Positions 35,836-54,542 of a stretch of 54,542 nt of DNA are shown one piece after another. Numbering within the stretch: the first letter of the stretch is position 1; every line of letters starts with the position of its first letter. Source of the DNA: Clostridia bacterium (GTDB lineage: Bacteria; Bacillota; Clostridia; Acetivibrionales; DSM-27016); contig JAOAIJ010000031.1 in assembly GCA_026414765.1 (NCBI GenBank), positions 1 to 54,542 on the forward strand, read 5' to 3'. Made by a program: the position numbers and the translations under genes. A model generated the notes under the pieces. The model was not told the origin of the DNA. It saw only the letters and a list, made by a program, of their open reading frames with translations, and did not search any database.

Positions 35836-35874
35836 AATCTCATCTCCTTCGAAAATCACGGTTCTCCTTCATGC

Positions 35875-36828
35875 TCATACAACTACTGCCTCTACCAGCT
35901 TAATAAGATTCTTTTCGTTATTGAATGGAGTAATAATGGAGTAAATATCGGTTAGGCTTTTACTGCCTAGGTTGTACTTTGCAAAGTTCGCAAGAGTACC
36001 CGACGGCCCCATATCAATGTATATACATTCCCCCATTTTTTCAATTTCTTTTACAGCACTAATAAAGTTAATAGGTTTCCGCACCACATCCCAGAAATAT
36101 CCGTAGTCAACAGATTCCTCCCTGCCTCCTGTAAGGCATGAAACAAAATTTACACGGGGGCTGCTCAAGGGTTTGGTTTTAATAAACTCCTTAAAATCAA
36201 ACCCAGCAGGATCAATCATAGACGAGTGAAAGGCATATGATACCGGCAACCTCTGAAATACATATACTTTGGCTTTCAAGTATCTTTCAATTTTTTCCAA
36301 TCCGCTAAGGCTTCCACACACTACAAAATGTGAGTGATAGTTTACAGAAACCAGCTCCGAGTTCTGATACAGTACCGGTTCCTCTTCGAATATTTTGGTA
36401 TCATTGATTATAGCAAGCATACCGCCGTTTTCGCAGTGCTTTTCCATTGCTTCCGCCTGTTTTACAACACACTCCAAGGCGTCCTCACAGCTCATTACAC
36501 CAGAAATTGCTGCCGATACAAATTCACCCAGGCTGGCTCCTAAAACATATTGGGGGTAAATACCTCTCTCCATGACAGCCTTTGCTATCGAGTATTCTAA
36601 AATAAAAATCGCAGGGTGTGTATACCGTAATCGACTAAAAACCTCAATCTTCATTCTTTTTTCGTCATACAACACTTTGATTACGGATTCACCTGTCATG
36701 TCCTGATACATTTCATCCAGCTTCTTCATCCAGCCTCTAAACGCTGAATCCATCAAGAACAACTCCCGGCCCATATTGTAATACTGCGCCCCTTGGCCCG
36801 AAAACATAAAAACTATAGGTTTTTTCAT
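35875..36828 (-). CDS. Discrete acyltransferase (trans-AT) of the PKS
   Basis: A 317-residue FabD-fold acyltransferase. It shows FMFSGQGAQYYNMGREL, the catalytic Ser in LGASLGEFVSAAISG, and the catalytic His in PVSYAFHSSMIDP. The usual His before the active Ser (GHSxG) is Ala here. It is expected to load malonyl onto the AT-less modules of the neighbouring PKS; an acyl-hydrolase (proofreading) role is possible, since trans-AT clusters often have both. GGAGGATGAATAT precedes the ATG; 15 bases separate it from the MATE gene. Confidence 0.88.
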   Translation of the reverse strand: MKKPIVFMFSGQGAQYYNMGRELFLMDSAFRGWMKKLDEMYQDMTGESVIKVLYDEKRMKIEVFSRLRYTHPAIFILEYSIAKAVMERGIYPQYVLGASLGEFVSAAISGVMSCEDALECVVKQAEAMEKHCENGGMLAIINDTKIFEEEPVLYQNSELVSVNYHSHFVVCGSLSGLEKIERYLKAKVYVFQRLPVSYAFHSSMIDPAGFDFKEFIKTKPLSSPRVNFVSCLTGGREESVDYGYFWDVVRKPINFISAVKEIEKMGECIYIDMGPSGTLANFAKYNLGSKSLTDIYSIITPFNNEKNLIKLVEAVVV

Positions 36829-36843: not shown

Positions 36844-38313
36844 TTATGCCCCTATTCCTATTCCCTTTCCTTTTATATGCAGCTTTTTTATATAGCTTCT
36901 TCCCCAAAGGAGAGCTATGATAAATGAAATCACATTCCCTGTTCCTACCCCTATGAATACTCCATACATTTCCATTTTAGCATAATGTATCAAAAGCAGT
37001 GATAATGGAATTGAGATTATACCCATACGGATAATTACCAGAACCAGATCCGGAATAGGTCTGCCTGTAGCCTGGAATGTAGATGAAACCACCATTGAAA
37101 CCGCTACCCAGATAGTTGTAAATGCCAGCAATCTTACCTGTCTTATACAGCCTTCTACAACCTCAGGCCTGGAAGAAAACAAGCTGTAAATACCAGGAGA
37201 GGTAATGAAGTACAAAAGTGCGACACCCGCACAAATGGCAGCACATAACATCAGATTAACCTTGAATATTTTCTGTGCTCTCTCCAGGTTACCGCGCCCG
37301 AAATTTTGGCCTATCATGGTTATTGTTGTTGCAGCAATGGCTGCTCCAGGAATAATCAATATCTGATCCAGCCTGGTAACCAGTACCCATGAGTTCATTG
37401 CCTCCTGGCTTATGGAGCTCACTATGTTGTTCAAGACAATGGAGGAAATACTGATTGAAAACAGTCCCAGTGAGGCCGGAATACCTATTCGCAAAATCTC
37501 TTTAACCTGTTTTATGCTTGCCTGAAAAACCCTCCATCTGATTGGTATAACTGTCTTTTTCCTTAAAAACAAGTACAGGAAATAAAACTCAGTCAACCCT
37601 ATTGCCAATGTAGTTGCAAGAGCGGATCCCCTTACTCCGAGCCCGAATACAAAAATCAAAACCGGATTAAGTATTATATTGAATGCTGTTGACAGAAATA
37701 TGGATATCCCAAGGTATTTCATAGAACCTTCCCCTTGCAAGATACCGACAAACGCATGTGTTAAAAACAGCAGCACCATACCCGGAAGCAGGAAATTGAA
37801 GTAATCAATACCATATTGTATTGTTTCCGCTGTTAACTGGCTACCAGCAATGAAATGAACCATATCCCCCCCGAAAATCAGGCCGGAAATCAGAGTGAAC
37901 GCTCCTATAATTATGGCCAGAAATAGTCCTGAATCCGCAGCATTATTTATTACCTTGTCATTTTTCTCACCAATGCCCCGGGCTATCAATGAGCTGATAC
38001 CTAGCAGCAAACCGGTTGCTAGATTTATAACACACGAATAAATGGGATATACCAGGCCCGTGCCGCTGATCATAGCGGTTGACTGTCTGTTTATCATTGA
38101 GATAAAAACAGTGTCCACTATTATATAGGCGAAGGCAAGAAACTGGCTGATTATTATTGGAATACTAAGTTTTAAAGTGGTAGATGCTATAGGCCCTTCG
38201 AAAATCCCTGATATGGCCTCCTGCTTTTTTACGGTTTTTTCACTGCCCGGCACCATAGTTTGATTTTCAGTATCTGCAGCAGCATTCATATTAATATCCT
38301 TTTTCTCTTCCAT
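36844..38313 (-). CDS. MATE-family efflux transporter
   Basis: A 489-residue, 12-helix MATE (NorM/DinF-like) antiporter with an N-terminal cytoplasmic tail of about 35 residues. Each half starts with a typical segment (STTLKLSIPIIISQFLAFAYIIVDTVFISMI; ILRIGIPASLGLFSISISSIVLNNIV). It exports drugs by Na+ or H+ exchange. In this operon it is the likely exporter and self-protection gene for the NRPS/PKS product. AAAGGGAGATAAAAA precedes the ATG; the NRPS stop is 67 bases upstream. Confidence 0.9.
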   Translation of the reverse strand: MEEKKDINMNAAADTENQTMVPGSEKTVKKQEAISGIFEGPIASTTLKLSIPIIISQFLAFAYIIVDTVFISMINRQSTAMISGTGLVYPIYSCVINLATGLLLGISSLIARGIGEKNDKVINNAADSGLFLAIIIGAFTLISGLIFGGDMVHFIAGSQLTAETIQYGIDYFNFLLPGMVLLFLTHAFVGILQGEGSMKYLGISIFLSTAFNIILNPVLIFVFGLGVRGSALATTLAIGLTEFYFLYLFLRKKTVIPIRWRVFQASIKQVKEILRIGIPASLGLFSISISSIVLNNIVSSISQEAMNSWVLVTRLDQILIIPGAAIAATTITMIGQNFGRGNLERAQKIFKVNLMLCAAICAGVALLYFITSPGIYSLFSSRPEVVEGCIRQVRLLAFTTIWVAVSMVVSSTFQATGRPIPDLVLVIIRMGIISIPLSLLLIHYAKMEMYGVFIGVGTGNVISFIIALLWGRSYIKKLHIKGKGIGIGA

Positions 38314-38380: not shown

Positions 38381-41300
38381 TCACCCCTTGATATCGTCAA
38401 TACGCAGTTTTCCTTCATAGAAGACTCGGGGATTTCTGATTGAATCCTTTGGGGGCATTTCAATCAAATCGCAAATATCAGATATGCGCTTTTGTACCGG
38501 ATTAACCAGAATATCTTCCAATACCTGTTGGAAATTCCTTATCAGACAGGAAATCGACTCATCATTGAAAACATTCCTGTAGTAAGACATGTGCAAAGCC
38601 AGCTCACTCTCCGGATAAAGATCCACTCTCAAAGGAAATCCCATTTTGGATACAAAGAAGTGGTTTGGCGTTTTTGCATTTAGTTCTTCTACTGTCGCGT
38701 TCTGGAACACAAGATAATTCTGGGCAAAGGGCCTGTCAGCCGGTATCAGGTTCCACTCCTGGAGCCTTCTCAGCGGAGTATTCTGATATCTGCTGAGTTC
38801 AACTATCTGTGCCATCAGGTTTTTAAGCCATTCCAGCAGCAAATCACTGCTGGATATCCTGACACGCAGCGGAATGATGTTAAGGAAAGGCCCTACCATA
38901 TCTTCAACACCCTTCAGTGCTACAGGGCGGCCGTTTATGATAATTCCGTAGACAATATCATTCCTCCGTGAATAATAGCTTTGAATCAATGACCATGTGC
39001 CTTGTACCAGTGTACCAAGTGTCAAACGGTACTCTCTGGCCAGCTGTCTGAGCTTATCCGAGGTTTCCCTGGACATTTTTATGCACTGACGGGCAAATCC
39101 GCTTTCATTATCAGGCTTGTTTCCCGGAATACCGCTGGCAAGAGGAGTAGGCCGGTCAAAATCCCTGAGCTTGTTTTCCCAAAAAGCTCTTATCTGTGAA
39201 AGGTCTTCTTTTTGTATTATAGCGACACAATCCTTATATTTTCTAATTTGTTTCAAATTAACGGTCTGACCTTTTAGGAAGGCATTTAATATTTTGTCAA
39301 ACTCATCAAAGATTGTATTAAAGCTCCACCCATCAAGGCACATGTAGCTGAAACTGAAGAGGAGCAGGCTGCAGTCCTGCATCTGTCCGATAAATACACG
39401 TATTCCCCTTGGTTTGCCGAGCTCGATTCCCCTTGTACGGTCGTCTTTTAAAAACTCCTCCAGCCTCGCATCTCTCATTTCTTCGGATATCTCACGCCAA
39501 TCCTCATATGCAAGTGATATCTTCACGTTTTTATGTACCAACTGAAGCGGTTTGTCAAGCTCCTCCCAGACAAAAGAGGTTCTTAGCGCCTCATGCCTGT
39601 CTACCAATGCCTGCCACACATTTTCGTAAAAATCTATATCCCATCCTCCTGAAAAAGGCACTATCATCATGTTCTGAACAAGGAACAGCCCTGTTTCAGG
39701 TGATGAGAGATAGCGGTTCAGCATATGCTCCTGAAATGGAGCCAACGGGTATACATCCTCAATATCACCACTGCTTAATATTTCTTTAATCTTTTTCCTG
39801 TCCCTCTCTGAGTAATCAAATCCGGAGAAATCATCCTGCACTTGCAATTCACCTGTGCAGGTTTCCGATTCCAAAGCAGCAGCTAGTTCAGATATAGTCT
39901 GGTACTTAAACATATGCTGCGGTGTTATCTCGACTCCTTTCTGCTTTGCCCTGGCTACCACCCTGATACTGTGGATGGAGTCCCCTCCCAGACTGAAAAA
40001 GTTATTATTGGTTCCAACACGCTCCAAACCTAAAACCTCAGCCCAAACCTCAGCCAGAATCTTTTCTGCCGGAGTAACAGGCGCCATAATGTTCTCTCCT
40101 GAATCCGGCAACTCCACAACCGGAGCCGGCAATGCTTTTCTGTCAAGTTTACCGTTTGAATTTACCGGCATCTCTTTTATTACTACAAAGCTTGACGGTA
40201 TCATATGGTCAGGCAGCTTTTCCTTCAGATACCCGCGAAGCTCCGGTACCAGTCTGTTTGCAATTCTATCCAGCAAAGGATTGTTTGCATAACTGTCCAG
40301 TCTATGATAGTTCTTTTTCAGTCCGCTTTGGGCAATTACCGCAGGATTCTGCTGTAAAACCGATTTATGCTTTAAAGTAATTTCATAACTTCCGTCAGCC
40401 GCTCCACTGCACCAGACAATATCAGCGCCATAATCCAGCCTGTCGCACAAACCCCATATTGTCTCAGGGTCCACACCTTCGTCCTGGTCCTGCAGGCTGC
40501 ATATATGTCTTATCTTTTCCACGTTCTCTCCAGGCTCAAGTTTTTTCAGTATGGATAATTTTCTGTTTACGGATTGGTTCCTTGCATTGGGTATGTTTGT
40601 AATATGCAGTAGTTCGGGAGGATCATTTTTTAATATTTCTTCAAGCCTGTCAATATTCATATCCTCCTTGTGCCAGTCAAAATTTATGGCTTCCCTCTCT
40701 GCTGCAGGACTTCCTCCGACATGAAGAATGACGTCATACCTGTACCGGGTCAGTTCATTATGGTATTTGCCTCTTTTCAATTGAACCTCCACATGGGATA
40801 TTTCAGACAGTTGTTCTTTAAGTGCCAGAAAAAACTCGGGATCAATCAGCAGCTCCTGCTCCTGCCTTATGCGTTTTGAAACCCGCTGTTTTAGTTGTTC
40901 TATAGTAAGAGAGGACAGCGCCTTTTCAAGCTCTATATCAGTATGGAAGGTTTCCAGCAGGGAAAAGTTGCGTATATCACCTAAAAACACAGCCCCTCCG
41001 CCATTATGGTTAACCATCTGTACAGCCTTCTTCAGCACACTCAGGAAGTAGTTCACATCAGGGAAGTACTGTACAACGGAGTTGAGTACAACTACATTGA
41101 ACCCTTCATCATCAAATACACTGAAATCATCTGCATTTTTTCTCAGCAGCTTTACATGCGACAAATCCTTTCTCTTTTCAATCAGGTTATTTCTGACATA
41201 ATCAAGAACCATTGACGAGATGTCGCTTCCCCAATACTTATCACACCGGGGGGCAATCCTGGACAATAGCAGCCCCGTACCACAGCCTATTTCCAATACC

Positions 41301-44300
41301 TTCTCCGGTTTTAATGCCAGAATGCGTCCAACTATAGCATCCACCCACTCACGCATTTCCTCTGCAAGCAGCGGGAGACCCGTATAGCTGCTGTTCCAGC
41401 TTGAAATATTAAAGTCCGCCTCAATATTTTCAGTATTGGTTTTGTATGCCTTGTCAAATACCGTTTCCCACTCGGATACCTGTGAATCATGCAGGTTTTC
41501 TGCAGGCAGGCCTTTCTCCTCTGCCCTCTCCTGCAGATCGGAAATTACATAAGCTACTAGTTGCTTGTGGTCAGGCATATGCTCATATTCCTGGACAACA
41601 ACGGCAGCTTTTTGCACACCGGGATGCTCCTCCAGGACAGCTTCAATCTCCCCAAGTTCTATACGTATACCTCTGATTTTAACCTGAAAATCTATCCTTC
41701 CAACGTACTCTATATTACCGTCGGGCAAATAACGGGCCAAGTCACCGGTCTTATAAAGGCGTGCTCCCTCTTCTCCACTGAAAGGATCGGGTATGAATTT
41801 TTCTTCAGTCAGTTCAGGGCGGTTATGATATCCGCGGGCGACCTGAATCCCGCCTATATGTAATTCGCCGGGAACACCTGTCGGTACGGGATTCAGATTC
41901 TTATCCAGAATATAAATCTGCGTATTGGCAACAGGACGACCTATGGGTACCATGCGCTGTTCGCTTCCCCTGCGGCACGCCCAATAGGTAACATCTACTG
42001 CAGCTTCAGTAGGTCCGTACAAATTATGCAAGCCGGCCTTTAGGCGTTTGTGGAAGAGCTCCTGGGTGGAGAACGACAATGCCTCGCCACTGCTGATAAC
42101 ACGCTTTAACGTATCACAGTTTTCAATCCCCTCTTCTTCAAGAAAAACCTGGAGCATGGAGGGAACAAAATGGATTGTTGTAATTCCTTCTTTTTGTATG
42201 AGTCGTGAAAGGTACGAAGGGTCCTTATGGCCTTCAGGCTTAGCCAGCACCATACAAGCTCCCGTTATTAACGGCCAGAAGAATTCCCAGACTGATACGT
42301 CAAAACTGAAAGGGGTTTTCTGAAGGACACGGTCTGTCTCATTCAGCCCATATTCCTCCTGCATCCACAAAAGTCTGTTTACTATTCCTTTATGGGTATT
42401 CATAGCGCCCTTGGGCTTGCCCGTAGACCCTGACGTATAAATCATATAAGCAAGATTACCACTTGCCGTCCTGCAGCCACTGCCGTCCTGGCTCTCACAG
42501 CTTAATACTTCCATATCCGCATCTATACATACAACTTCAGAGTTGTTTGCAGAAATAGTATTTGCTAGCTTCAGCTGGGTCAGTATTAATGGAGGCTTTG
42601 AGTCTTCCAGCATAAAAGCCAGACGCTCGGCCGGATATGAAGGATCCAGCGGAACATACGCTCCCCCGGCCTTTAAGATTCCCAACAGGCTGACAATAAG
42701 TTCAAGGGAACGCTCCATACATATTCCCACCAAGGTCTCCGGTCCCACTCCCTTTTTAATCAGATAGCTTGCCATTTGATTTGCTTTCCGGTCAAGTTCC
42801 TTGTAAGTAAGCTTATTATCCTGGAAGAGGACTGCAGGTGCATCCGGAGTCCTATCAACCTGACGCTCGATGATTTCATGGAGACACATATCCCCTTGCG
42901 GGTATACAACTGCAGTATCGTTCCATTCATACAGCAGCTTTTGTTTTTCTTCTTCGGACATTACGGGAAGATAAGCTATCCCCTTCTCCGGATTGGAAGC
43001 TATCCCCTGCAGGAGGATTTTGTAACTTTCTAAAATTCTAGCAACAGTAGACTCGTTGAAAATATCCGAATTATACTCCACATCCGCATCAAGATAATCA
43101 ACTTTATCTATGACCTCAATCCACAGATCAAACTTGGAGGTATCGTTGCGTACCTCATTTATTGCATCTACAGACAATTTCAATTCGGAAACCTCTGTTC
43201 TTTTAGGCATGGGAATATTCTGCAGGACAAAACACACCTGGAATAGCGGATTCTGGCTCAGATTGCGTTCGGGCTGCAGTTCATCCACAAGTACTTCAAA
43301 GGGCAGGTCCTGGTGCTTGTACGCATCATTGGCTTCTTCACGAACCCTCCCCAATAATTCTCTAAAGCTCGGATTACCGGAGAGATCGGTTTTCAGCACT
43401 ATAGTGTTAACAAAAAATCCGATAAGATTTTCTACCTCAACCCTGTTGCGGTTGGCTATCGGTGTTCCTACCATAATGACTTCCTGGTTCGTATATCTGT
43501 AAAGCAATACCTTCAATGCAGTGATCAGTATCATGAAAAGTGTTGCATTTTCCTGTTCGCACAGTTCCTTAATGCGTTTTGTAACTGAAGGCGGAATCCG
43601 GAACTTTATGTTCCCGCCCCTGAAGGATTGAATAGGCGGCCTTACACGGTCAGCCGGCAATTCCAGTGCACTTCTCTCCTTGCCGAGTTTTTCTTTCCAA
43701 TAAGAAAGCTGTGATTGGATAATCTCCCCTTGCAGCCATTTACGCTGCCATACGGAAAAGTCGGAATACTGTATAGGTAGTGCCGGAAGCGGCGAAGGCT
43801 TTCCTGCCGAGAATGCCATATACAGGGTCATCAGTTCTTTCAATAATAGTCCAATTGACCATCCGTCAACTACTATGTGATGGATATTCACAAGCAGTAT
43901 ATGCCTGTTTTCGTCTAAGCGGCATAACAAAGTACGTATGAGAGGCCCCTTGGTCAAGTCAAAAACATGTCTTCCTTCTACTGTTTTCAGCTTCTGCATC
44001 TGCTTTTCCATTTCGCTGTCACTATATTCTCTTAAGTCTGCTACAGGCAGTTTCAACTCAAGCTTTGGTGAGATTTCCTGGTATGCCTGCCCGTTTATGC
44101 TCTTAAAAGTAGTACGCAGTGCTTCATGCCGGCTTATTATTTCATTGATGCATTTCTCAAGTATTACAGTATCTACTTCACCGGACATGCAAAATTCCAC
44201 AATCGCGTTATAAGCAGGATTATTAGGTACCAGTTGGTCTAAAAACCACAGTCTCTGCTGTGCATAAGATAACGGAACAGGTTCATTTCCCGGGCGTGGC

Positions 44301-44413
44301 TGTATAGCCGTAGCGGCAGTATCCGATTTAAAACCCTTCAGTTTTTCGAGCAGGGCCAGCTTTTCTGCAGATAGCCTGGCCTTACGTTCTTGAAGTATCT
44401 CATCTTTAGACAT
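38381..44413 (-). CDS. NRPS module C-A(Ser)-NMT-PCP with terminal atypical C domain
   Basis: A 2010-residue one-module NRPS. C domain about residues 45-480 (LSYAQQRLWFLDQL; active HHIVVDG). A domain about 500-960 (YTSGSTGKPKG; LYGPTEAAVD); the ten-residue pocket reads DVWHISLVDK, a serine code. An N-methyltransferase is inserted in the A domain (EIGCGTGLLL near 1043). PCP with LGGDSI, Ser 1479. A last condensation-like domain about 1555-1990 begins DIEDVYPLAPFQEHML but its HHxxxDG motif reads SYMCLDG (residues 1689-1695). No thioesterase or reductase. It should take the beta-ketoacyl chain from the PKS protein, couple N-methyl-Ser and release the product by an unusual route. Confidence 0.93.
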   Translation of the reverse strand: MSKDEILQERKARLSAEKLALLEKLKGFKSDTAATAIQPRPGNEPVPLSYAQQRLWFLDQLVPNNPAYNAIVEFCMSGEVDTVILEKCINEIISRHEALRTTFKSINGQAYQEISPKLELKLPVADLREYSDSEMEKQMQKLKTVEGRHVFDLTKGPLIRTLLCRLDENRHILLVNIHHIVVDGWSIGLLLKELMTLYMAFSAGKPSPLPALPIQYSDFSVWQRKWLQGEIIQSQLSYWKEKLGKERSALELPADRVRPPIQSFRGGNIKFRIPPSVTKRIKELCEQENATLFMILITALKVLLYRYTNQEVIMVGTPIANRNRVEVENLIGFFVNTIVLKTDLSGNPSFRELLGRVREEANDAYKHQDLPFEVLVDELQPERNLSQNPLFQVCFVLQNIPMPKRTEVSELKLSVDAINEVRNDTSKFDLWIEVIDKVDYLDADVEYNSDIFNESTVARILESYKILLQGIASNPEKGIAYLPVMSEEEKQKLLYEWNDTAVVYPQGDMCLHEIIERQVDRTPDAPAVLFQDNKLTYKELDRKANQMASYLIKKGVGPETLVGICMERSLELIVSLLGILKAGGAYVPLDPSYPAERLAFMLEDSKPPLILTQLKLANTISANNSEVVCIDADMEVLSCESQDGSGCRTASGNLAYMIYTSGSTGKPKGAMNTHKGIVNRLLWMQEEYGLNETDRVLQKTPFSFDVSVWEFFWPLITGACMVLAKPEGHKDPSYLSRLIQKEGITTIHFVPSMLQVFLEEEGIENCDTLKRVISSGEALSFSTQELFHKRLKAGLHNLYGPTEAAVDVTYWACRRGSEQRMVPIGRPVANTQIYILDKNLNPVPTGVPGELHIGGIQVARGYHNRPELTEEKFIPDPFSGEEGARLYKTGDLARYLPDGNIEYVGRIDFQVKIRGIRIELGEIEAVLEEHPGVQKAAVVVQEYEHMPDHKQLVAYVISDLQERAEEKGLPAENLHDSQVSEWETVFDKAYKTNTENIEADFNISSWNSSYTGLPLLAEEMREWVDAIVGRILALKPEKVLEIGCGTGLLLSRIAPRCDKYWGSDISSMVLDYVRNNLIEKRKDLSHVKLLRKNADDFSVFDDEGFNVVVLNSVVQYFPDVNYFLSVLKKAVQMVNHNGGGAVFLGDIRNFSLLETFHTDIELEKALSSLTIEQLKQRVSKRIRQEQELLIDPEFFLALKEQLSEISHVEVQLKRGKYHNELTRYRYDVILHVGGSPAAEREAINFDWHKEDMNIDRLEEILKNDPPELLHITNIPNARNQSVNRKLSILKKLEPGENVEKIRHICSLQDQDEGVDPETIWGLCDRLDYGADIVWCSGAADGSYEITLKHKSVLQQNPAVIAQSGLKKNYHRLDSYANNPLLDRIANRLVPELRGYLKEKLPDHMIPSSFVVIKEMPVNSNGKLDRKALPAPVVELPDSGENIMAPVTPAEKILAEVWAEVLGLERVGTNNNFFSLGGDSIHSIRVVARAKQKGVEITPQHMFKYQTISELAAALESETCTGELQVQDDFSGFDYSERDRKKIKEILSSGDIEDVYPLAPFQEHMLNRYLSSPETGLFLVQNMMIVPFSGGWDIDFYENVWQALVDRHEALRTSFVWEELDKPLQLVHKNVKISLAYEDWREISEEMRDARLEEFLKDDRTRGIELGKPRGIRVFIGQMQDCSLLLFSFSYMCLDGWSFNTIFDEFDKILNAFLKGQTVNLKQIRKYKDCVAIIQKEDLSQIRAFWENKLRDFDRPTPLASGIPGNKPDNESGFARQCIKMSRETSDKLRQLAREYRLTLGTLVQGTWSLIQSYYSRRNDIVYGIIINGRPVALKGVEDMVGPFLNIIPLRVRISSSDLLLEWLKNLMAQIVELSRYQNTPLRRLQEWNLIPADRPFAQNYLVFQNATVEELNAKTPNHFFVSKMGFPLRVDLYPESELALHMSYYRNVFNDESISCLIRNFQQVLEDILVNPVQKRISDICDLIEMPPKDSIRNPRVFYEGKLRIDDIKG

Positions 44414-44463: not shown

Positions 44464-47400
44464 TTACAATAGACTCAACTGTTCCAGCATATCCTCTGGA
44501 AGCTCTTCTATCTTATCAATCAGCACTTCTTCCACAATTTCAGCCATACTGGACACAGTTGAAGCGCCAAATATGTTTTTTAGGTTGATTTCGAAGGGGA
44601 AGCTCTTTTCCAGCCTTGAAATAATTTGGGTTGCCATAATCGAATCCCCGCCCATATCATTGAAATCATCATAAATGCCTACATGCTCCATGCCGAGTAC
44701 TTCCTTCCATATATCCGAAATTCTTTTTTCCAGCATGTTGAGCGGTGCTGTATAACTATCTGCTGTATTGCTGCTTTCATCCTGATTCTTGTTTACAATG
44801 TCTCCAGTAGTATTTACTGCCCTTCTTTCAATGTAACTCTCTGGCAAATCCCTATTTGCCGGCAAGCCTACAGTTTTTGGCCTATTCTTCTCAGGAACCC
44901 AGTATTTTTTATAGGAGAACGGATACTCTGGCAGCGGAATTCTTACATATTGATTCTTTGGGAACATCTGTTCAAACTCCAGAGCATAGCCCTGAACATA
45001 CAGTTCGGCAATAGCTGACAACTGTTCAATAAAGTCGCTAGTATCAGTACCGTCAGCACATTCCCTGATGCACTGATTACCCATACGCCTTAAAATAGGC
45101 TGCTCCCTGCGGCTGTGCTCAACAATTTCGCAAGAATAAACCTGTGGTAAGTTTTTCTTTTCCAGCCACTTTTGCAAAAGCATTATAAACTCATCCATAT
45201 TTCTGACAACACACGCCAACCGATGATTGTGATGCTTCCGTCCCACCAGTAGTGTAAAACTCAAATTACCCGGATCCACCTGCTCCTCATGCTCACAGAA
45301 CTGAATCAACTGCACGGCACGTTGCTTTAGTTGTTCGTGGGTTCTTGCAGACAGTACCATAAGGTATCCCGGCTTTTCACTATGCACTCTGTCCAGTACA
45401 GGAGCCTCTTCAATAACAACATGGGCATTTGTTCCACTGAATCCGAAGGAGCTTACCGCAGCACAACGCTTTGAACCCGGCCTGACAATCCAATCCTTGA
45501 GCTCCGTATTCACAAAGAACGGGCTATCATCAAACCGGATATTCGCATTTCCGCTCTCAAAGTGGAGAGAAGGTGGAATCTGCTTATTTTTCAATGACAA
45601 AAGTATTTTAATAACTCCGATTACCCCTGCTGCATGGGCGGCATGCCCTAGGTTTGTCTTTATTGATCCTATGGCGCAAAACTGACTTTTATCAGTATAT
45701 GTTCTGAAAGCACGTGTTATTGCATCATATTCAATAGGATCACCAAGTTTGGTGCCAGTTCCGTGTGCTTCCACCATCTGGATGTGCTCCGGATCTATAT
45801 TGAACGTATCGTATACATGGCGTATCAAACGTTCCTGGGAGACAGCGCTTGGTGCAGTAATACCATTGGTCCTGCCATCCTGGTTTATTCCGGTTCCGCG
45901 TATGACCCCGTAAATATGGTCACCGTCATTAACAGCATCTTCAAGTCTCTTCAATACCAAAGCTCCGACACCCTCCCCGGGAACAAAACCGTCTGCCCGG
46001 TCATCAAATGCGTAGCAGCATCCTGTGGGTGAAAGCATACCTGCACGGTTTCCTACCAGATATATACCGGGAGTACAATTCATATAAACTCCACCGGCTA
46101 CGGCCATATTTATTTCATTAGCCCTTAATGCCTGGCAGGCAATATGAATTGCAACCAGCGAACTGGAACAAGCTGTATCTATGGATACCGCCGGGCCTTT
46201 CAGATTCAGGTAATACGCAACACGTGCAGGAATAACCGAGCTGTCGTTTCCCCAGAAGGATTGAGGCGGAGGATTGTCTCCAAACAACTGGTCGTAGTCT
46301 CCACGTCCACAACCTGCATATACGCCGCACTGCAGTCCTTCGTCCACCGCTCCTGTATAACCGGCATCTTCCAGAGCCTTCCATGATTCTTCCAGGAAAA
46401 GCCTCTGCCTGGGGTCCATATAGGTTGCTTCAAGCTCTGATATATTGAAAAAGAGCGGATCAAAAAGGTCGATATCCTCGAGGAAGCTGCCATGTTCGCA
46501 TATACCTTCCTTACCCTTGAAATATTCCCGTATATTCCAGCGGGATGCTTTTCCCATCAAATCAGTACCTTTTGCAAGATGCTCCCACAATTCATAGACT
46601 GTCCTGGATTTTGCAAAACGGCCGCTCATACCGACTACTGCAATTCCATCCTGTTTCGCCACCCTGCCTGATACTTTTTCTATGTGAGGGGCACTGTAAG
46701 CGCTTGTTTTCCGTTCATCCGGCTGCTTCCTTCTCCACTCACCGGGTATAGATATGGATTTCTTAGGGTTTTCAAGCGCCGGGTTTTCCCCTGAAGGCCC
46801 AAGACCTTTACCTGACGGCGTGCTTACCTTCAGAATGGCTGACAGGGCGCTTTTGTTCTCTCTTGCAATATAACCGGCCAGTTGTTTTACATTGTTGTAA
46901 TCAAAGAGCACCGTTGTTTGTAGTGTCAGGTTCAGCTTCCTATTGAGCATATTCACAAGGTTAACTGCTATTATGGAGTCCACACCGTACTCAGAGAAGC
47001 TGCTTTCATCCTGTATTTTATGTTCTTCCATTTTTACAGCCTCAGCTACACTCTCCCTTATTACCATAAGCACATGCTCTTCTATCACTTGGTCGCTTAT
47101 ACCGGGCACTTGCATGACTGTATTTGATTTATTTTTTACAGCATTCAAACTATTCTGTTGTTTTTCCACTACAGCATGGTTTTTCCTATCTTCTGCATCA
47201 GTAGTAATCCGTTCAGTTTCCACAGCCTGCCCTCCTCCCTGTTTTTGCCGTATAATCCCGTTGCTCTCGGAAATAATAATCTGCTGCCCCATCTCACATG
47301 CATCCTCGAAAGCGAAGCATACTCTCCTGAAGCCTTCGGTTTCCAATGTCTCTTTGAAAGTCTCGGGTGTCAGTAAAGGACAGCCCGGAATGCGCAGCCG

Positions 47401-50400
47401 TGAATCTTCATAAAGCCACCAACCTTCCAGAAGTCCAAAGGTCAGATGGGAAAAAAGGTTGTTTCTTATTATTTCATTCAGTATAAATAATCCGTTTTTC
47501 CTTAATACGGCTTTTATGTTCCGTAAAGTATGCCGTATGTTTTTTGTGGCGTGCAGGATATTTGTCGCAATTAAAACATCATACCCTCCGGCATCAATAC
47601 CCTGCCCGTCTATAGGCATTTCTGCATTAAGAAGCTTATAGGTGAGGTAGGGATTCGCGCTGCCATACTCTTTTTCTGCATGTATCAGAAAGGCCTTCGA
47701 TATATCTGTATAACAGTATTCCTCAATATGTCCGGCATAAGGCTTGAGCTTTTCAAACACCTTAACACTGGTAGAGCCCGTACCTGCTCCTATTTCTATA
47801 ATCCGTACCCTGGCGCGGGCATCAGCCTTGATCCTTTCTTTTATGTATATTTCTAGAATACCGGCAACAGCTCCATTGAAAAAATCCACAATTGCATTGC
47901 TTTTATATACACCCTCCACTAATTCCATAGAGGAGTTTGGAAACATAACATCGGTTGCCTTTTTCTTTCCTGTCAGTATTTCCGGCAATACTCGCATTGT
48001 CGCCTCTGCCAGGATAACCTGGGCTTTCATATCCGGATCCTTAATCCAGGCCTCCTTCCTGCCGTTCCACTCCGCCCACGCTTCATCCATATTGGCTGGG
48101 GCCATGTCAGTTACAGAGAATTTTTCTCCATCACATATGAGATAACCATTCCTTGAAAGAACCTGTAGGCTTTCCATGAGCCATCTTTCATACATATCAT
48201 CTAACCCGTTTTTAAAGCCGAGCCCTTTTAGTAAAAACTCCTTTTCCCGGAAGAGGCCTAAGGACTGTAGCTGGCTCCACAACAATCTGCAAAGCATTTC
48301 TTCCATTTCCTTGCCTTTATACATCAGTTCAGAAAACATATCCGTGATATCAGAACCAGCTATTGCATCAGTACCTGAGTCATACTGCAGGAGTCTGTCC
48401 GCAGGCATACCCCCGGTTTTCTCCTTCAGGTATGCTGCAAGACTGCCCAAGGTTGAGTGCTCAAAAAGTACCTGGAGGGATATTCCCGTACTAAGCCTTT
48501 GGTTCAGTGTCTCAACAAATTCCTCCAGTTTCACGTGATCAAAGCCATATTCCTTGAGATCCACATCCATATCAACATCACCGGAGCTGACCATAAGAAT
48601 TTCGGCTGCGGTTTTTACCAGGGAATCCTTTATACTTTCAGTCATTTCATTGTCATCATGTTTACTATCCGCAGGGGTGAGTCCAATACCTCCCTCCTGC
48701 TCTTCAGAAGCCGAAACGAGGTTGTATATGCAATTAATTCTTGACTCTACAACTTCAGGATATACCTTTATTACTTCACCGGAGTCCACCCCCTTCACAC
48801 CAAGGGCCTTTGTAATTTTTAAAAACGCGATCTGGTTTACGGGTCCCGCCAGTAGAGTTTCCAGAACTTCCATCGCCTCCGGGGCTTTAATGGAATCAAT
48901 GCCGGCTTCCGACATTCTATCCTTGTATTCCTTCGAGGCAACTACCCCCTCATTTCCCCAGAATCCCCAGTTTATTACCTTCACACGGCATGTCCACTCA
49001 TTGGAAAGCTGGCGCGCAAATGCATCTTTGTATGCACAGCCGGAATTGTAGTTGCTCTGTCCCGGAGACTTAACAAATGAATTAACTGAGGAAAAGAATA
49101 ACGCAAAATCCAGGGCTTCGTTTTTAAAAACCTGAGCTGTACGTACACATATATCTATCTTTGCGGCAAGTACATCCCGGAATATTTCCTCTTCCATGTT
49201 TGCAAGGCTCTGGTCCTTCAATACGATGGCAGAGTGTATTACTCCGTTTATTTTCGCATGCTGCTTTTTAATCTCTCTATAGGCCCGCTGCAGAGCTTTG
49301 ATGTCTCTTGCATCCGCCGCAATGTATTGGGGAGCCGATCCCAAAGCTGCCAGCCTGTCCAGTTTTGCCCGGATACTTTCATCTATTTCCCTACGGCCAA
49401 TCCATATGATTTTTGCTCTGTAGGTACGGATCATATATTCGCTCCATGCCTCTCCTATGCCGCCGGCTCCTCCGATTACCACATACACCCCTTCTGTTGT
49501 ATACAAAGTCTTCTTCACCGGAGGCTGCTGCAAAGATACGAGCTTTTGCTCATGCCATTCCCCCTTCCTGTATGCCAGGGTCTTTCCGGGTGTGTCAAAG
49601 GGGATAGTAAATATTTCCTGTAACGGCCACTGGGAATCCGTATCCATATCAATCAACCGTATATTCCAGTTCCTGTATTCTCCGGCCAGTGTTCCTGCAA
49701 GACCATAAACAGCCGAGTGTGCCGGATTTATTGTTTCTGCTTCAAATACAGGCTGTGCAAGAGTTGTAATTATTGTCCATCCCAGAGGTTTGCTTCCATA
49801 TCCCAACCGGAGCAGTGCTTTTATCATCCTGAAACAGCATAAAACCCCTCCATCCTGCTCTGTTATCCGTACATCATCCATAAGCCCTTTCAGGCGGCGT
49901 GGTACTATCCAGACAATATGTCCGATCGACCCCTCAGCTTCAAATTTCCTTACAAAGCTGTCGATAGACTCATCGTTACTGATGTCCAATACACTAGCAT
50001 CGGGATAAAGCTGCTTAATTCCGGTAATATCTCCACCTGTTCCTCCGACAATCACAACATGCTCTTCCGTCCTTGGGCAAAGCCGCCCCTTTTTGACAAC
50101 ACAGGTGTCCCATACCGGAGTCAGCATGACAGTTCCTGCATAAGGCTTTGCAGCATCTTTTGCAGAAGCTGTTCCTGACATGTTTCCAGGCTGTTCACCC
50201 CCCTCAAGCGCCCGCGATGAAAAACCAATCACCCTGACACATACATTTCCGCTGTCATCACATATATCAATATCCTGCTTTCTGATTCCGCCATCTCCGC
50301 TGCTTCCCCCACTATTGCGTATGAAGGCCCACATTGACTTTGTACAGCCTTTATATACTTCCACATCCTCCAGGGCAAAAGGCAAAGTCACCTTGGCAGA

Positions 50401-53400
50401 CGCTTCACGTCCGGAAGACATAAAATCCGCTGAGCCTTTTTGCAGACCCACCGCAGCCTGTATAGCAGAATCCATAAGACTGGGGTGCAATACATAATCC
50501 CCCCAGGTTTCGGATGCCGATTCAGGCAAGCTGAGCCTGGCCAATACATAATCCTGTCCCAAATATACGGTTTGCAGTCCCTGATAACACGGCCCATAGT
50601 CAATGCCCATCTGCCTTATGGATTCATAAAACTTTTCCGTATCAAAGCCATCCTGGCTGCATCCCGCCAGTAACTCCTCAATATCCAGTACCGGCATATC
50701 TGACATGGGATAAAACTCTGCAATCCCCTGGCTGTGCAGTACTTCTCCCATCTCATCTCCATGCGGATTGCTGTATACTTTATAGAAAATCTCTCCGTCT
50801 TCCTGCGGCATCAGGCCAATATGTACCTGTATTTCCTGTGCACCGGCAATAATAGGTCTGACCCATACTACATTCTTTATGCGAATACCTGCCTGTTGTC
50901 CGGCAAGAATTCCTGCAAAACGGCTTACTGCCTCTCTCGCCATTTCCAGATAAGTTACGCCCGGCAATACCGCCTGGTCCTTTACAAGGTGCTCGGCAAT
51001 AAAAAATTCTTGTCCCGTAATATTTGTACTGAACCTATACTCGGAAAAATCAGATGTATTCCGGTGCAGCAGCGGATGAATCAAAGCTGCCTTGTCAATA
51101 CCGGTAAAAGTTCCGGCAGTTTTTTTTGCATTAATATCGGGAGCCCAGAAGCGTTCCCCGGCAAAGGGATATGTGGGCAGACTGATTTTAAGCGGTTTTT
51201 TCCCTGAATACATTAAACTCCAGTCGATTTGCAGCCCTTTTGTCCAAATATCCGCAAGCTTCTCAAGCTCTCCTTTTGACATCCATTTTTCAACTACATC
51301 CCTGCAATCCTCATCATTACGGAATAGTTGTACTGTCTGGTTTGATACCTTCGAGTCCCCTGTAAAGCACCCTTCGATATCTTCCTTTCCCAGCAAGAAC
51401 TTCTCCAGCTTTTGTATCAGCTCCTCAAGAGAATTTACTAAAAAGACTGCCCTGCTTTCCATGGCCTGCCGCCCCACCTGAAGAGTGTATGAAACTTCCG
51501 CCGGATTCAGTTGTTTTTTCCCTGGAGCCTTTAAAAATTCACAGAGTATCCTTGCGTATTCATTCAGGCGGTCTCTGTTCTTTGCGGCCAGAGGAATCAC
51601 ATATCCTTTACCGGAAGCTGCTTCATCAATATACTCATGATTCCCTGCTCTGATATATTCCTCAAAAATTGCATGGGCATTGGTTCCCCCGATTCCAAAG
51701 GAACTTAATGCCGCTCTGCGTGGCAGCAAAGAGGTTTCCCATTTCTTCAGCTTATCCACAACATAAAACGGGGATTCCTTCTGATCTATATTGGGGTTCG
51801 GCTCGTTATAGTTTATTGATGGGGGTATTTCACTATTATACAGGCTCAATGCGACCTTGATGCAGCCTGCCAGCCCTGCAGCCGTATCAAGATGTCCTAT
51901 ATTTGTTTTTACCGACCCTATCCCACAGTACTGGCGCTTTTCAGTATATTGCATGTAAACATCCCTAAGCGCAGCAAATTCAACAGGATCTCCTAGCTTT
52001 GTCCCGGTTCCGTGGGCTTCCACATAGCTGATGGTCTCCGGATTGATATCCGTGGTATTCAGCACCTTCTGGATGACATCAGCCTGTCCTTTGACACTTG
52101 GAGCATAATATCCAACCTTGTCAGCCCCGTCATTGTTTATCCCTATTCCCCTTAGTACAGCATAGATATTATCACCATCCCTTATGGCATCCAGGGCATT
52201 TTTCAGCATGATGACGGCAACTCCTTCACCGCTTATCATTCCATCCGCTGAAGCATCAAAGGTTTTGACATGTCCGTCGCTGGAAAAATTCAAACCGTTC
52301 TGGTGCATATATCCCAGATTGGCTGAAGGAAATATGGTTGCACCTCCTACCAGTGCATATTTCGATTCTCCGGATTTCAGACTCTTATAAGCCGAATGAA
52401 GCCCTACCAAAGATGAAGAACAATTGGAATGGATAAAAAAGCTGGGCCCCTTCAATCCCAATTTATATGAAACCATTGTCGGTATAGTACCACCCTGGGC
52501 TAAAAGCCACGATACATACTCATCCGAATTCTTCAGTACATCATCTGTTTTTGTTCCACGCAGGGCAGCCTGATAAAAACTGCTGCTTGCAGACATGAAA
52601 ACACCTGTTTCAGGGATCTGCTTCGGAGTATAACCGGCATCCTCAACAGCTTTCCATGAATGCACCAGCAAAAGTCTCAACTGTGGATCCATAAACTCTG
52701 CATCCTTGTGGGAAATATTAAAAAAGCCTGAATCAAATAATTCTTTCCCTTCAATTGTCGATTGCACAGGAACATAATTGGAATTATTGATTATTTCTTT
52801 AGATAGCCCGGTTTCAGCAAGTTCCTCTTCTGACAGCAGCCTGACGCTTTCTGAGCCATTGTGCAGATTTTCCCAGAATTCAAAATGGTTTTTCGCACCC
52901 GGGAACTGGCATGATATTCCGATTATTGCCACACTATCCTCAAGATATTGGGGATAATCCCCTGTATCACTCTGTTTCCTGCTTTCTTTGATTCTGATAT
53001 CCAATTGCGCAGTTATTTCTTTTTGTTCCCATTTCAAACTGTTGTCATTCCCCTTCTTCTCTGCTATATAAGCACTGAGCTCTTTTATATTGGAGTATTT
53101 AAACAGCATGGTCACCGCAAGATCAACGTCCAGCTCCGTCTTTATCCTCTGAACTACTGTGACCGCAAGAACAGAGTCCCCTCCTATATCAAAGAAACCG
53201 TCTTCCGTACTTATATTTTCAACTTTCAAAACATCTTTCCATATTTTCAACACACTTTTTTCTACTTCCGATTGTGGCGCGCTTACCTTATGATTCCTTG
53301 CCAGTTCTATCTTACGGTTCATCAGTTCTTTCCGGTCAATTTTTCCGTTTGGTGTTAAAGGTATCTTGTCCAACGGTATAAACAACGCGGGCATCATATA

Positions 53401-54542
53401 TTCCGGCAGCCGGGCTTCCAGAAAGCCGCGCAGCCGGTTTGGTCCAGTACGGCTGCTGACGCTGTCCGCCATTTCCGATTTCCTGTTTTTTAAAACATAG
53501 TATGCTATAAGCTGCTTGGTGTCCTCCTGATTTCTGACAACTACGGCACAGTTTTCAATATCCGGATGAGAAAGAAGCTGGTCTTCAATCTCCCCCAGTT
53601 CAATACGGTGTCCGCGGATTTTTACCTGATAATCCAGCCTGCCAAGAAATTCAATATTTCCATCAGAGAGCCAGCGGGCCAGATCACCTGTCTTATACAT
53701 TTTTGTTCCCGGTTCAAAGGGATTGTCTATAAATTTCTCTACGGTCAGCCCCGGTTGATTCAGGTACCCTCTGGCCAGCCCGTCACCTGCAATGTGAAGT
53801 TCACCCGGCATGCCTATGGGCATCGGATTCAGGTGGCTGTCAAGTATATAAACTTTAGTATTTGCTATAGGCTTGCCTATAGTGACCGGCTCGGTTTTCC
53901 TTATATGCTGGACTGTAGACCAGATGGTTGTTTCTGTCGGTCCGAACATGTTCCACACGTCACAGTTGTTCTGAAGGAATTGATGCTTCAGTGCTTCAGG
54001 AAGTGCTTCCCCACCACAAAGAATTTTGATACCCTCTTCATTTTTCCAGCCTGCTCTGAAAAGCATCGTCCATGCAGCAGGCGTTGCCTGCATTATTGTT
54101 GGCCTAAGTCTTTTGATTTCCTGTTTAAGCTTCTCTGCATCCTTAATCTTTTCAGCATTACAAACATATACTTTTGCACCTTTTATCAAAGGCAGGTACA
54201 ATTCCAGCCCTGCAATATCAAAGCAGTAAGTTGTTATGGCAAGCAATGCATCCTGTGACACCAGTCCCGGTGTATTGCCCATGGATATCAGAAAGTTTGT
54301 CAAGCCTTTGTGAAGTACCATAACCCCTTTAGGTTTTCCGGTGCTTCCGGATGTATATATGACGTAGGCCAGGTGGCCGGGACATACCTCCCTTGCAAGA
54401 TGTTTTATCCCTTTGGCCCCATTCTCTATCTTTTTCCATTCACTGTCCAGGCTAACCCTCCTGAGTCCCGCAGCCGGCAGATGTATCTTGTCCTTCAGCC
54501 CTTCCTGGGTCAACACTATGGACACCTTGCTGTCCTGTATCA
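44464..54542 (-). CDS. Hybrid NRPS/trans-AT PKS: A(Gly)-PCP-KS-DH-KR-(ACP*)-cMT-ACP-KS-ACP, 5' end beyond the window
   Basis: About 3358 residues are visible; the frame runs off the right edge inside an A domain, so a GTG near 54525 is not the real start. Counting from 54525: A domain to about 410 (YTSGSTGKPKG; pocket DILQLGMIWK, a glycine code), PCP (GGDS, Ser 451), KS1 about 525-960 (active C702 in HSNCSSSL), DH about 1145-1430 (His 1179), KR about 1480-1850 (GGAGGIG), an ACP-like domain with His 1997 where Ser should be, cMT about 2080-2420 (EIGAGTGS), ACP (Ser 2517), KS2 about 2620-3050 (C2786 in DTACSSSL) and ACP (Ser 3295). AT domains are absent and KS flanks end in LPxYPF linkers, as in trans-AT systems. 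Confidence 0.93.
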   Translation of the reverse strand, partial: IQDSKVSIVLTQEGLKDKIHLPAAGLRRVSLDSEWKKIENGAKGIKHLAREVCPGHLAYVIYTSGSTGKPKGVMVLHKGLTNFLISMGNTPGLVSQDALLAITTYCFDIAGLELYLPLIKGAKVYVCNAEKIKDAEKLKQEIKRLRPTIMQATPAAWTMLFRAGWKNEEGIKILCGGEALPEALKHQFLQNNCDVWNMFGPTETTIWSTVQHIRKTEPVTIGKPIANTKVYILDSHLNPMPIGMPGELHIAGDGLARGYLNQPGLTVEKFIDNPFEPGTKMYKTGDLARWLSDGNIEFLGRLDYQVKIRGHRIELGEIEDQLLSHPDIENCAVVVRNQEDTKQLIAYYVLKNRKSEMADSVSSRTGPNRLRGFLEARLPEYMMPALFIPLDKIPLTPNGKIDRKELMNRKIELARNHKVSAPQSEVEKSVLKIWKDVLKVENISTEDGFFDIGGDSVLAVTVVQRIKTELDVDLAVTMLFKYSNIKELSAYIAEKKGNDNSLKWEQKEITAQLDIRIKESRKQSDTGDYPQYLEDSVAIIGISCQFPGAKNHFEFWENLHNGSESVRLLSEEELAETGLSKEIINNSNYVPVQSTIEGKELFDSGFFNISHKDAEFMDPQLRLLLVHSWKAVEDAGYTPKQIPETGVFMSASSSFYQAALRGTKTDDVLKNSDEYVSWLLAQGGTIPTMVSYKLGLKGPSFFIHSNCSSSLVGLHSAYKSLKSGESKYALVGGATIFPSANLGYMHQNGLNFSSDGHVKTFDASADGMISGEGVAVIMLKNALDAIRDGDNIYAVLRGIGINNDGADKVGYYAPSVKGQADVIQKVLNTTDINPETISYVEAHGTGTKLGDPVEFAALRDVYMQYTEKRQYCGIGSVKTNIGHLDTAAGLAGCIKVALSLYNSEIPPSINYNEPNPNIDQKESPFYVVDKLKKWETSLLPRRAALSSFGIGGTNAHAIFEEYIRAGNHEYIDEAASGKGYVIPLAAKNRDRLNEYARILCEFLKAPGKKQLNPAEVSYTLQVGRQAMESRAVFLVNSLEELIQKLEKFLLGKEDIEGCFTGDSKVSNQTVQLFRNDEDCRDVVEKWMSKGELEKLADIWTKGLQIDWSLMYSGKKPLKISLPTYPFAGERFWAPDINAKKTAGTFTGIDKAALIHPLLHRNTSDFSEYRFSTNITGQEFFIAEHLVKDQAVLPGVTYLEMAREAVSRFAGILAGQQAGIRIKNVVWVRPIIAGAQEIQVHIGLMPQEDGEIFYKVYSNPHGDEMGEVLHSQGIAEFYPMSDMPVLDIEELLAGCSQDGFDTEKFYESIRQMGIDYGPCYQGLQTVYLGQDYVLARLSLPESASETWGDYVLHPSLMDSAIQAAVGLQKGSADFMSSGREASAKVTLPFALEDVEVYKGCTKSMWAFIRNSGGSSGDGGIRKQDIDICDDSGNVCVRVIGFSSRALEGGEQPGNMSGTASAKDAAKPYAGTVMLTPVWDTCVVKKGRLCPRTEEHVVIVGGTGGDITGIKQLYPDASVLDISNDESIDSFVRKFEAEGSIGHIVWIVPRRLKGLMDDVRITEQDGGVLCCFRMIKALLRLGYGSKPLGWTIITTLAQPVFEAETINPAHSAVYGLAGTLAGEYRNWNIRLIDMDTDSQWPLQEIFTIPFDTPGKTLAYRKGEWHEQKLVSLQQPPVKKTLYTTEGVYVVIGGAGGIGEAWSEYMIRTYRAKIIWIGRREIDESIRAKLDRLAALGSAPQYIAADARDIKALQRAYREIKKQHAKINGVIHSAIVLKDQSLANMEEEIFRDVLAAKIDICVRTAQVFKNEALDFALFFSSVNSFVKSPGQSNYNSGCAYKDAFARQLSNEWTCRVKVINWGFWGNEGVVASKEYKDRMSEAGIDSIKAPEAMEVLETLLAGPVNQIAFLKITKALGVKGVDSGEVIKVYPEVVESRINCIYNLVSASEEQEGGIGLTPADSKHDDNEMTESIKDSLVKTAAEILMVSSGDVDMDVDLKEYGFDHVKLEEFVETLNQRLSTGISLQVLFEHSTLGSLAAYLKEKTGGMPADRLLQYDSGTDAIAGSDITDMFSELMYKGKEMEEMLCRLLWSQLQSLGLFREKEFLLKGLGFKNGLDDMYERWLMESLQVLSRNGYLICDGEKFSVTDMAPANMDEAWAEWNGRKEAWIKDPDMKAQVILAEATMRVLPEILTGKKKATDVMFPNSSMELVEGVYKSNAIVDFFNGAVAGILEIYIKERIKADARARVRIIEIGAGTGSTSVKVFEKLKPYAGHIEEYCYTDISKAFLIHAEKEYGSANPYLTYKLLNAEMPIDGQGIDAGGYDVLIATNILHATKNIRHTLRNIKAVLRKNGLFILNEIIRNNLFSHLTFGLLEGWWLYEDSRLRIPGCPLLTPETFKETLETEGFRRVCFAFEDACEMGQQIIISESNGIIRQKQGGGQAVETERITTDAEDRKNHAVVEKQQNSLNAVKNKSNTVMQVPGISDQVIEEHVLMVIRESVAEAVKMEEHKIQDESSFSEYGVDSIIAVNLVNMLNRKLNLTLQTTVLFDYNNVKQLAGYIARENKSALSAILKVSTPSGKGLGPSGENPALENPKKSISIPGEWRRKQPDERKTSAYSAPHIEKVSGRVAKQDGIAVVGMSGRFAKSRTVYELWEHLAKGTDLMGKASRWNIREYFKGKEGICEHGSFLEDIDLFDPLFFNISELEATYMDPRQRLFLEESWKALEDAGYTGAVDEGLQCGVYAGCGRGDYDQLFGDNPPPQSFWGNDSSVIPARVAYYLNLKGPAVSIDTACSSSLVAIHIACQALRANEINMAVAGGVYMNCTPGIYLVGNRAGMLSPTGCCYAFDDRADGFVPGEGVGALVLKRLEDAVNDGDHIYGVIRGTGINQDGRTNGITAPSAVSQERLIRHVYDTFNIDPEHIQMVEAHGTGTKLGDPIEYDAITRAFRTYTDKSQFCAIGSIKTNLGHAAHAAGVIGVIKILLSLKNKQIPPSLHFESGNANIRFDDSPFFVNTELKDWIVRPGSKRCAAVSSFGFSGTNAHVVIEEAPVLDRVHSEKPGYLMVLSARTHEQLKQRAVQLIQFCEHEEQVDPGNLSFTLLVGRKHHNHRLACVVRNMDEFIMLLQKWLEKKNLPQVYSCEIVEHSRREQPILRRMGNQCIRECADGTDTSDFIEQLSAIAELYVQGYALEFEQMFPKNQYVRIPLPEYPFSYKKYWVPEKNRPKTVGLPANRDLPESYIERRAVNTTGDIVNKNQDESSNTADSYTAPLNMLEKRISDIWKEVLGMEHVGIYDDFNDMGGDSIMATQIISRLEKSFPFEINLKNIFGASTVSSMAEIVEEVLIDKIEELPEDMLEQLSLL

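Follow-up and report, generated by a model that had tools for sequence, protein, structure and literature searches.

How does a nonribosomal peptide synthetase (NRPS) release its product when it ends in a condensation (C) domain that lacks both histidines (HH) of the HHxxxDG motif? The question is raised by P0001, an NRPS of 2010 residues encoded on contig JAOAIJ010000031.1 of a Clostridia bacterium (assembly GCA_026414765.1), of which we analysed positions 1 to 54,542, the whole stretch being called the window here. The loss of the motif in the last domain had been pointed out in an earlier note on this DNA and is confirmed by the translation, with S1689 and Y1690 at the histidine positions and D1694 and G1695 kept. 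The motif lies within the segment given there for the domain, 39295-39760, but this is only the N-terminal part, since the full Pfam match covers 38489-39760. We call the terminal domain C*. From the comparisons described below, it falls in a conserved clade of likely release domains and is nearest to a lajollamycin-type domain. On balance we lean towards C* being an active release catalyst of the type of Laj10, the NRPS of the lajollamycin (laj) cluster, which would not form a peptide bond but would bring about an aldol and a beta-lactone closure.

Family PF00668 matches P0001 twice, once for each of its C domains. The match to the terminal domain is well formed, covering model positions 2-440 with a score of 223 bits. 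Structure modelling, one of the checks proposed in the note, gave a complete condensation fold (AlphaFold, pLDDT 88.7, pTM 0.88), and nearly the whole domain could be aligned with 8f7h (best aligned chain, Z 37.7, rmsd 3.1 over 422 residues). The fold is thus that of the canonical C domains of SrfA-C, PvdL and McyB, and the sequence matches PvdL and McyB with E values of about 3e-72. However, C* lacks both histidines, has Tyr and Arg at two other alignment columns and is followed by no downstream module, so that two of the features expected of a peptide-bond-forming C domain, the second His of HHxxxDG and an acceptor module, are missing. P0001 ends 13-35 residues past C*, depending on the match used, and the next genes code for a MATE exporter and an acyltransferase-like protein. 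The CT domain of fungal TqaA is also terminal, as is, by its name, HtmB2-CT; they share the C fold (HtmB2-CT, Z 31.8), but C* is far from both in sequence (E 2e-13 for TqaA, 3e-10 for HtmB2).

The window domain is a member of one clade of HH-less C domains, to which we extend the name C*, found across Firmicutes, Chloroflexota and actinomycetes. Its relatives come from the Clostridia metagenome-assembled genome (MAG) SKW257 (whose contig is identical with the G032 contig), three Brevibacillus species, a Peptococcaceae MAG, Thermosporothrix, Tengunoibacter and Prauserella, and further ones from six more genomes of the class of Brevibacillus and two Streptomyces genomes, G921 and G971. Another member is found in the genome of the window itself, where a paralogous NRPS line with a trans-acting acyltransferase (trans-AT), here called the twin, contains a 2010-codon NRPS frame that is 54% identical to P0001 and ends in an HH-less C domain reading NLMVQDGWSY. 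The twin line adjoins nitrogenase-like frames (NifH-like and MoFe-like, judged by eye). When trees were built without the seven motif columns, 11 HH-less terminal-type domains formed one clade, with an SH-aLRT of 98 in a tree of 64 rows (after removal of L032 and of six domains nearly identical to others) and support of 99/96 in a 32-row subset of those 64.

Residues outside the motif also set the clade apart. They were counted in 134 C domains remaining after removal of duplicate loci, scores below 110 bits and short matches. Tyr at the Y1900 column was present in 12 of 12 C* domains and in none of the 118 C domains with a second His, and Arg at the R1929 column in 12 of 12 and 1 of 118, respectively. 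DGWS was invariant across the 12 aligned C* domains, and the second motif position was His in all 43 close HH relatives compared with 0 of 11 C* domains. Since the loss of HH is common to the whole clade and goes together with two further marker residues, it is more than chance. The note had named random loss at the motif as grounds for abandoning its proposal; within the clade no such pattern was seen. Outside it the second His is also missing from 4 of the 134 domains, namely a terminal one (G018) and three internal cyanobacterial ones, the latter included in the residue count and in neither tree, so the motif can be lost elsewhere as well. Internal C domains of this kind in Pelatocladus and Calothrix (L035, L036) read HTSILDG or HNSILDG and have Arg at the R1929 column and no Tyr. 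Arg may therefore accompany loss of the second His in general, while Tyr does not.

The position and surroundings of C* are equally constant. It is protein-terminal (40 residues or fewer left) in 11 of 12 members, compared with 4 of 118 C domains with a second His, seven of these 118 being cut by contig edges. A C domain, an adenylation (A) domain, a methyltransferase (MT) and a peptidyl carrier protein (PCP) precede it in 12 of 12 compared members, the A-MT-PCP order being read from Pfam matches for the window, SKW257 and G921 and from alignment or motif for the other nine. In all seven clusters examined (window, twin, SKW257, B. fortis, Tengunoibacter, Prauserella and G921), the polyketide synthase (PKS) module before the NRPS had no ketoreductase (KR) match. 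A C-domain phylogeny had been suggested in the note; in ours, C* stands in an HH-less clade and its nearest relatives share SYxCLDG. As the last ketosynthase (KS) of the PKS-NRPS P0002, upstream of P0001, is not accompanied by a KR, a beta-keto chain is expected at P0001. The A-domain pocket of P0001, read at what we take to be the positions of the Stachelhaus code, is DVWHISLVD and agrees with that of the Ser-activating EntF (DVWHFSLVD) in eight of nine compared residues, which supports Ser as the activated amino acid.

The only member that is not terminal, SKW257, has another C-superfamily domain after C* in the same protein (a third PF00668 stretch, with PapA_C below cut-off). This raises the possibility that C* only recruits or positions a partner, and that the chain is released by hydrolysis or by transfer to an alcohol or amine from outside, for which some species would use such a second C-superfamily acyltransferase. 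A free homologue of the extra domain, 28% identical to it, is encoded downstream in Brevibacillus, and C domains for product release have been described for palmerolide, basiliskamide and phormidolide (PMC8739492). Yet tblastn with this protein matched only SKW257 and Brevibacillus among 11 clusters, several of which are partial, and the laj gene table contains no such gene (PMC10831120). We therefore regard this explanation as improbable. The free Brevibacillus protein adjoins an asparagine-synthase-like gene and a cytochrome P450 gene.

C* could also be a dead remnant, as the note considered. The product would then leave spontaneously or with the help of a protein whose gene is not in the operon, be it the metallo-beta-lactamase-fold protein at 28778-29707 or one from outside the cluster. 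Both histidines are indeed lost in C*, and the terminal domain of G018 shows that such losses can recur. This domain had been admitted to C* by score and was dropped, because it fell outside the clade in both trees and its motif reads WTSLFDNWS, with T in place of the marker Tyr; it appears to have lost HH independently, although its branch is long and its tree position therefore unsure. It (L024, 5353-11400) follows an apparent E domain and has an FkbH set and an SGGKDS ATP-pyrophosphatase-like frame in its neighbourhood. Against a remnant speaks a clade kept over three phyla, with a full fold, invariant DGWS and Tyr and Arg in every member compared. In addition, the dN/dS of C* in four close pairs (three from Brevibacillus and one from Streptomyces; the window domain has no close pair) was 0.11-0.17, a sign of purifying selection in these members, compared with 0.06-0.10 for the first C domain, 0.04-0.29 for A and 0.11-0.20 for MT. 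It is thus quite unlikely that C* is dead, and its position and context speak for the other option of the note, a recast release catalyst. Probably, C* closes and releases the product.

What chemistry would it perform? The closest relatives of the window C* are those of Prauserella and the two Streptomyces strains, with which it groups at 100/100 (motif columns excluded). These read SYLCLDGWSY and have in common with the window SYxCLDGWS(Y/F) and a short C-terminal tail with FxEG. The region around C* in G921 begins with a P450, a nitric oxide synthase (NOS) and a PKS, which are followed by long trans-AT PKSs, the NRPS with the order C-A-MT-PCP-C*, a pair of AT proteins and, lastly, homologues of HBDH, acyl dehydrogenase and FkbH, in this order; the P450 gene adjoins NOS (C1:5454521-5455594) and the PKS is of the type KS/linker-ACP-KS-AT-DH-KR-ACP. 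In gene order and content this region matches the published laj biosynthetic gene cluster (PMC10831120). Our first guess for G921, oxazolomycin, was replaced by lajollamycin, as the SGGKDS cyclodehydratase motif was not found and NOS was present. In Prauserella, NOS (C2:67585) is on the same contig as C*.

Laj10 is an NRPS of 2004 residues and shares 49% identity with OzmL, its counterpart in the oxazolomycin pathway. Its authors ascribe Ser and Thr variants to Laj10, infer Ser or Thr for it and propose a release "catalyzed by Laj10", the passage naming no domain or mechanism (PMC10831120). Lajollamycin is a spiro-beta-lactone-gamma-lactam and not a tetramate. Without Laj2 or Laj3 (P450 and NOS), denitrolajollamycin B accumulates (PMC10831120), so neither enzyme is needed for the rings. 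The remaining genes in the published laj table are of PKS, PKS-NRPS, AT, methoxymalonyl and regulatory types (PMC10831120); since there is no obvious ring-closer among them, the terminal domain of Laj10 is the natural candidate for ring closure. The window resembles the laj-type cluster of G921 in having an NRPS of about 2000 residues with the order C-A-MT-PCP-C*, a trans-AT, a KR-less preceding module, a SYLCLDGWSY-type motif near the C-terminus and a similar C-terminal tail. It differs in that no NOS, P450 or FkbH set was seen and in its EntF-like Ser A domain.

In the release that we propose, the last PCP would carry a beta-ketoacyl-N-methyl-seryl thioester and C* would keep the chain in its condensation tunnel, where the seryl alpha-carbon would attack the beta-ketone to give a gamma-lactam that bears a tertiary alcohol. 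In the second closure, the seryl hydroxyl would react with the thioester to form the spiro-beta-lactone and free the product. Both closures need a folded substrate and a base and no acceptor amine, in keeping with a C fold without HH. We infer that C* would do this chemistry itself; the atom map, the order of the closures, the part played by Y1900 and R1929 and the presence of the same ring system in the window product are likewise elements of the proposal.

The same thioester could also yield a tetramate. C* would then be a Dieckmann cyclase, as the note had guessed, with the carbanion flanked by the two carbonyls as nucleophile and the seryl thioester as its target, and the product would be an N-methyl-5-hydroxymethyl tetramic acid. 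Tetramate release by terminal C-like domains has been proposed for epifadin (EfiE) and malonomycin (PMC11310079); they stand after a PKS-fed single amino acid module as C* does, and epifadin likewise comes from a Firmicute trans-AT line, although its amino acid is Asp compared with the Ser type of the window. However, the nearest SYxCLDG relatives of C* are in lajollamycin-type clusters, with a spiro-beta-lactone-gamma-lactam as product, and the portions at hand of a review and a 2023 paper give R, TE, KS, PyrD3/4 and free Dieckmann cyclases for tetramates and no C domain. In the literature available in part on terminal C domains in tetramate or lactone release, we found only what is proposed for epifadin and malonomycin, the account of palmerolide and the statement on Laj10. 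As to known Dieckmann families, C* matches PF00668 and C structures, there was no thioesterase or reductase in the scanned open reading frames (ORFs), and no search for KirHI/TrdC or PyrD was made. The guess of a recast release role in the note therefore holds up better than its Dieckmann chemistry: lajollamycin-type closure is the likelier for the window, and Dieckmann cyclization is an unlikely second choice.

Several observations weigh against the Laj10-type reading. In profile score alone, the best HH domain (473 bits) is on a par with the Streptomyces C* domains (470 and 467 bits), and the window C* shares no more than 34-36% identity with the laj-type domains. Given the independent loss in G018, absence of HH alone proves nothing, and Arg at the R1929 column is shared by three of the four other domains without a second His, so that it does not single out the clade. 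The link to Laj10 comes from gene order and content of G921, not from the Laj10 or OzmL sequence, and in G971 the NOS genes are on contigs other than that of C*. No NOS or P450 family was found in the window ORFs covered by the Pfam and NCBIfam scans, and tblastn with FkbH, HBDH and acyl dehydrogenase of the methoxymalonyl set gave no relative in the window; its product is thus not lajollamycin. Moreover, the actinobacterial A-domain pocket differs from the Ser-type pocket of the window, oxazolomycin labelling was, according to a review, read as three glycines and not serine, the Firmicute part of the clade has no member of known product here, and the metallo-beta-lactamase-fold gene is a remote alternative.

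Methoxymalonyl genes were considered as a mark of all C* clusters and rejected, since FkbH matches of 287 bits or more were found only in Thermosporothrix, Prauserella, the two Streptomyces genomes and G018. By tblastn, FkbH was not found in the window, twin, SKW257, Brevibacillus and Peptococcaceae stretches, some of which are partial, and the match in Tengunoibacter was weak (117 bits, 27% identity).

The features of the window and the loci outside it that bear on C* are given in Table 1. The window cluster is an antibiotic-type assembly line of clostridial origin. The C-terminal tail of P0001 may be a docking element, judging by its resemblance to the tails of the related proteins.

Table 1. 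Positions of the features discussed (window coordinates unless a locus is given)
Feature	Position	Strand	Basis or remark
PKS-NRPS P0002, runs off the contig end; last module KS-ACP without KR	44464..54540	(-)	Pfam
NRPS P0001, 2010 aa, C-A(Ser-type)-methyltransferase-PCP-C* (terminal)	38381..44413	(-)	translation and Pfam
First C domain, ordinary HHIVVDG	42932..44278	(-)	Pfam
Adenylation domain, Ser-type pocket, EntF-like	41537..42868	(-)	Pfam and pocket comparison
Methyltransferase domain set into the adenylation region (Methyltransf_12, residues 1039-1138)	41000..41299	(-)	Pfam
PCP, residues 1453-1514; would present the chain to C*	39872..40057	(-)	Pfam
Terminal C* domain, residues 1550-1985	38459..39766	(-)	Pfam, AlphaFold model
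SYMCLDG, residues 1689-1695, where HHxxxDG would stand	39329..39349	(-)	translation
Tyr1900, C* marker	38714..38716	(-)	alignment
Arg1929, C* marker	38627..38629	(-)	alignment
C-terminal tail FYEGKLRIDDIKG (including FYEGKLRIDDI)	38384..38422	(-)	resembles FREG(E/R)FV(V/I)(N/K)D(V/I)LAL of Prauserella and Streptomyces C* proteins
MATE-family exporter	36844..38313	(-)	NCBIfam
Stand-alone acyltransferase-like protein (trans-AT)	35875..36828	(-)	NCBIfam, below curated cut-offs
EtfB, EtfA (ferredoxin-fused), HAD-IB phosphatase, glycerol-1-phosphate-dehydrogenase-like protein	31782-35859		operon continuation
Metallo-beta-lactamase-fold protein	28778-29707	opposite	outside the operon
Twin NRPS line with its own C* (NLMVQDGWSY)	L001 (G000:C42) 9014-15043; also L027, L028	(-)	
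Second C-superfamily domain or protein, PapA- or wax-ester-synthase-like (sub-threshold)	L023 10776-12053; L030 13228-14544		SKW257, fused after C*; Brevibacillus, free

The note had stated that the operon contains no thioesterase, reductase or stand-alone hydrolase, and none of the thioesterase, reductase and alpha/beta hydrolase families was found in the window ORFs scanned. The Pfam scan covered P0001, P0002 and 20 more window ORFs, and the NCBIfam scan P0001 and P0003-P0008 (the best 25 families for proteins with more matches); these scans did not extend to several of the short ORFs or to whatever lies past the end of the contig. An alpha/beta hydrolase is common to the C* clusters of Brevibacillus and Peptococcaceae (L115, 16140-16964, and L050, 8015-8818; 48% identity) and was not found in the window by tblastn.

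At the end of contig C6 of the same assembly (G000:C6; L132, L133) a C domain begins. This fragment and the first A domain of the window align collinearly with a single Brevibacillus protein (56% and 47% identity, with a gap of about 460 residues). C6 may thus be the upstream part of the window cluster. The placement is weakly supported, however: paralogues from the same genome score almost equally (133 compared with 142 bits, and 454 compared with 463 bits), and C7 is another contig that breaks off behind a C domain. The frames of C6 include an AT, an acyl-CoA dehydrogenase, an AMP-ligase and a PKS, and no thioesterase family was found in the six C6 ORFs scanned. If C6 belongs to the cluster, its acyl-CoA dehydrogenase would partner the EtfA/EtfB pair of the window.

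The two parts of P0001 seem to differ in origin. Its first C domain, A, MT and PCP are 56-76% identical to those of the twin, SKW257, Brevibacillus and Peptococcaceae and 39-59% to those of Streptomyces and Prauserella, whereas C* is 31-36% identical to all nine compared proteins. Forcing the window C* into a group with the other Firmicute C* domains was rejected (p-AU 2.9e-6; this alternative was chosen after the first tree). Since C* is nearest to actinobacterial domains and the rest of the NRPS to Firmicute ones, C* seems to have been swapped in, and the simplest account would be an exchange of the release domain near the PCP-C* linker.

We also looked at how widespread C* is. At E 1e-142 it was found in at least 7 of 398 genomes from the class to which Brevibacillus belongs (B. 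fortis included) and at least 1 of 391 in the class of the window (its own genome), at 1e-125 in at least 2 of 392 Streptomyces genomes, and at 1e-55 there were matches in at least 3 of 58 genomes of the order of the window, one of them G018. These counts are lower bounds, as the cut-offs were strict and in most of these searches the four best candidates per genome were scored. The motif of the pattern scan itself favours HH-less domains, so their frequency is not readable from that scan; terminal position was not a selection criterion. A single-sequence scan of genome contigs gave no matches. Among plasmids, 622 records matched PCP-C*, the best with about 35% identity; a KS search aimed at EfiE of epifadin gave no Staphylococcus among the best 60 of 1261 records, and in seven neighbourhoods of plasmid KS matches (12 kb flanks or to the record end) no C* was found.

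Taken further, and here we are more tentative than on the Laj10-type role, C* might represent a new catalytic class in the condensation superfamily: HH-less, with a Tyr/Arg active site, forming an aldol C-C bond and a beta-lactone on a carrier-bound chain, the source of oxazolomycin/lajollamycin-type warheads and a swappable release domain that has reached Clostridia. If this is true, there would be a named and testable catalyst for formation of the spiro-beta-lactone-gamma-lactam rings, and a domain class associated with amide and ester bonds would gain a His-free member that forms C-C bonds. Loss of HHxxxDG is then not to be taken as the sign of a dead domain. It would also give a sequence rule for candidate beta-lactone antibiotics in Clostridia and Brevibacillus, namely a protein-terminal C domain that has lost HH, has Tyr and Arg, and follows a KR-less module and a C-A-MT-PCP module.

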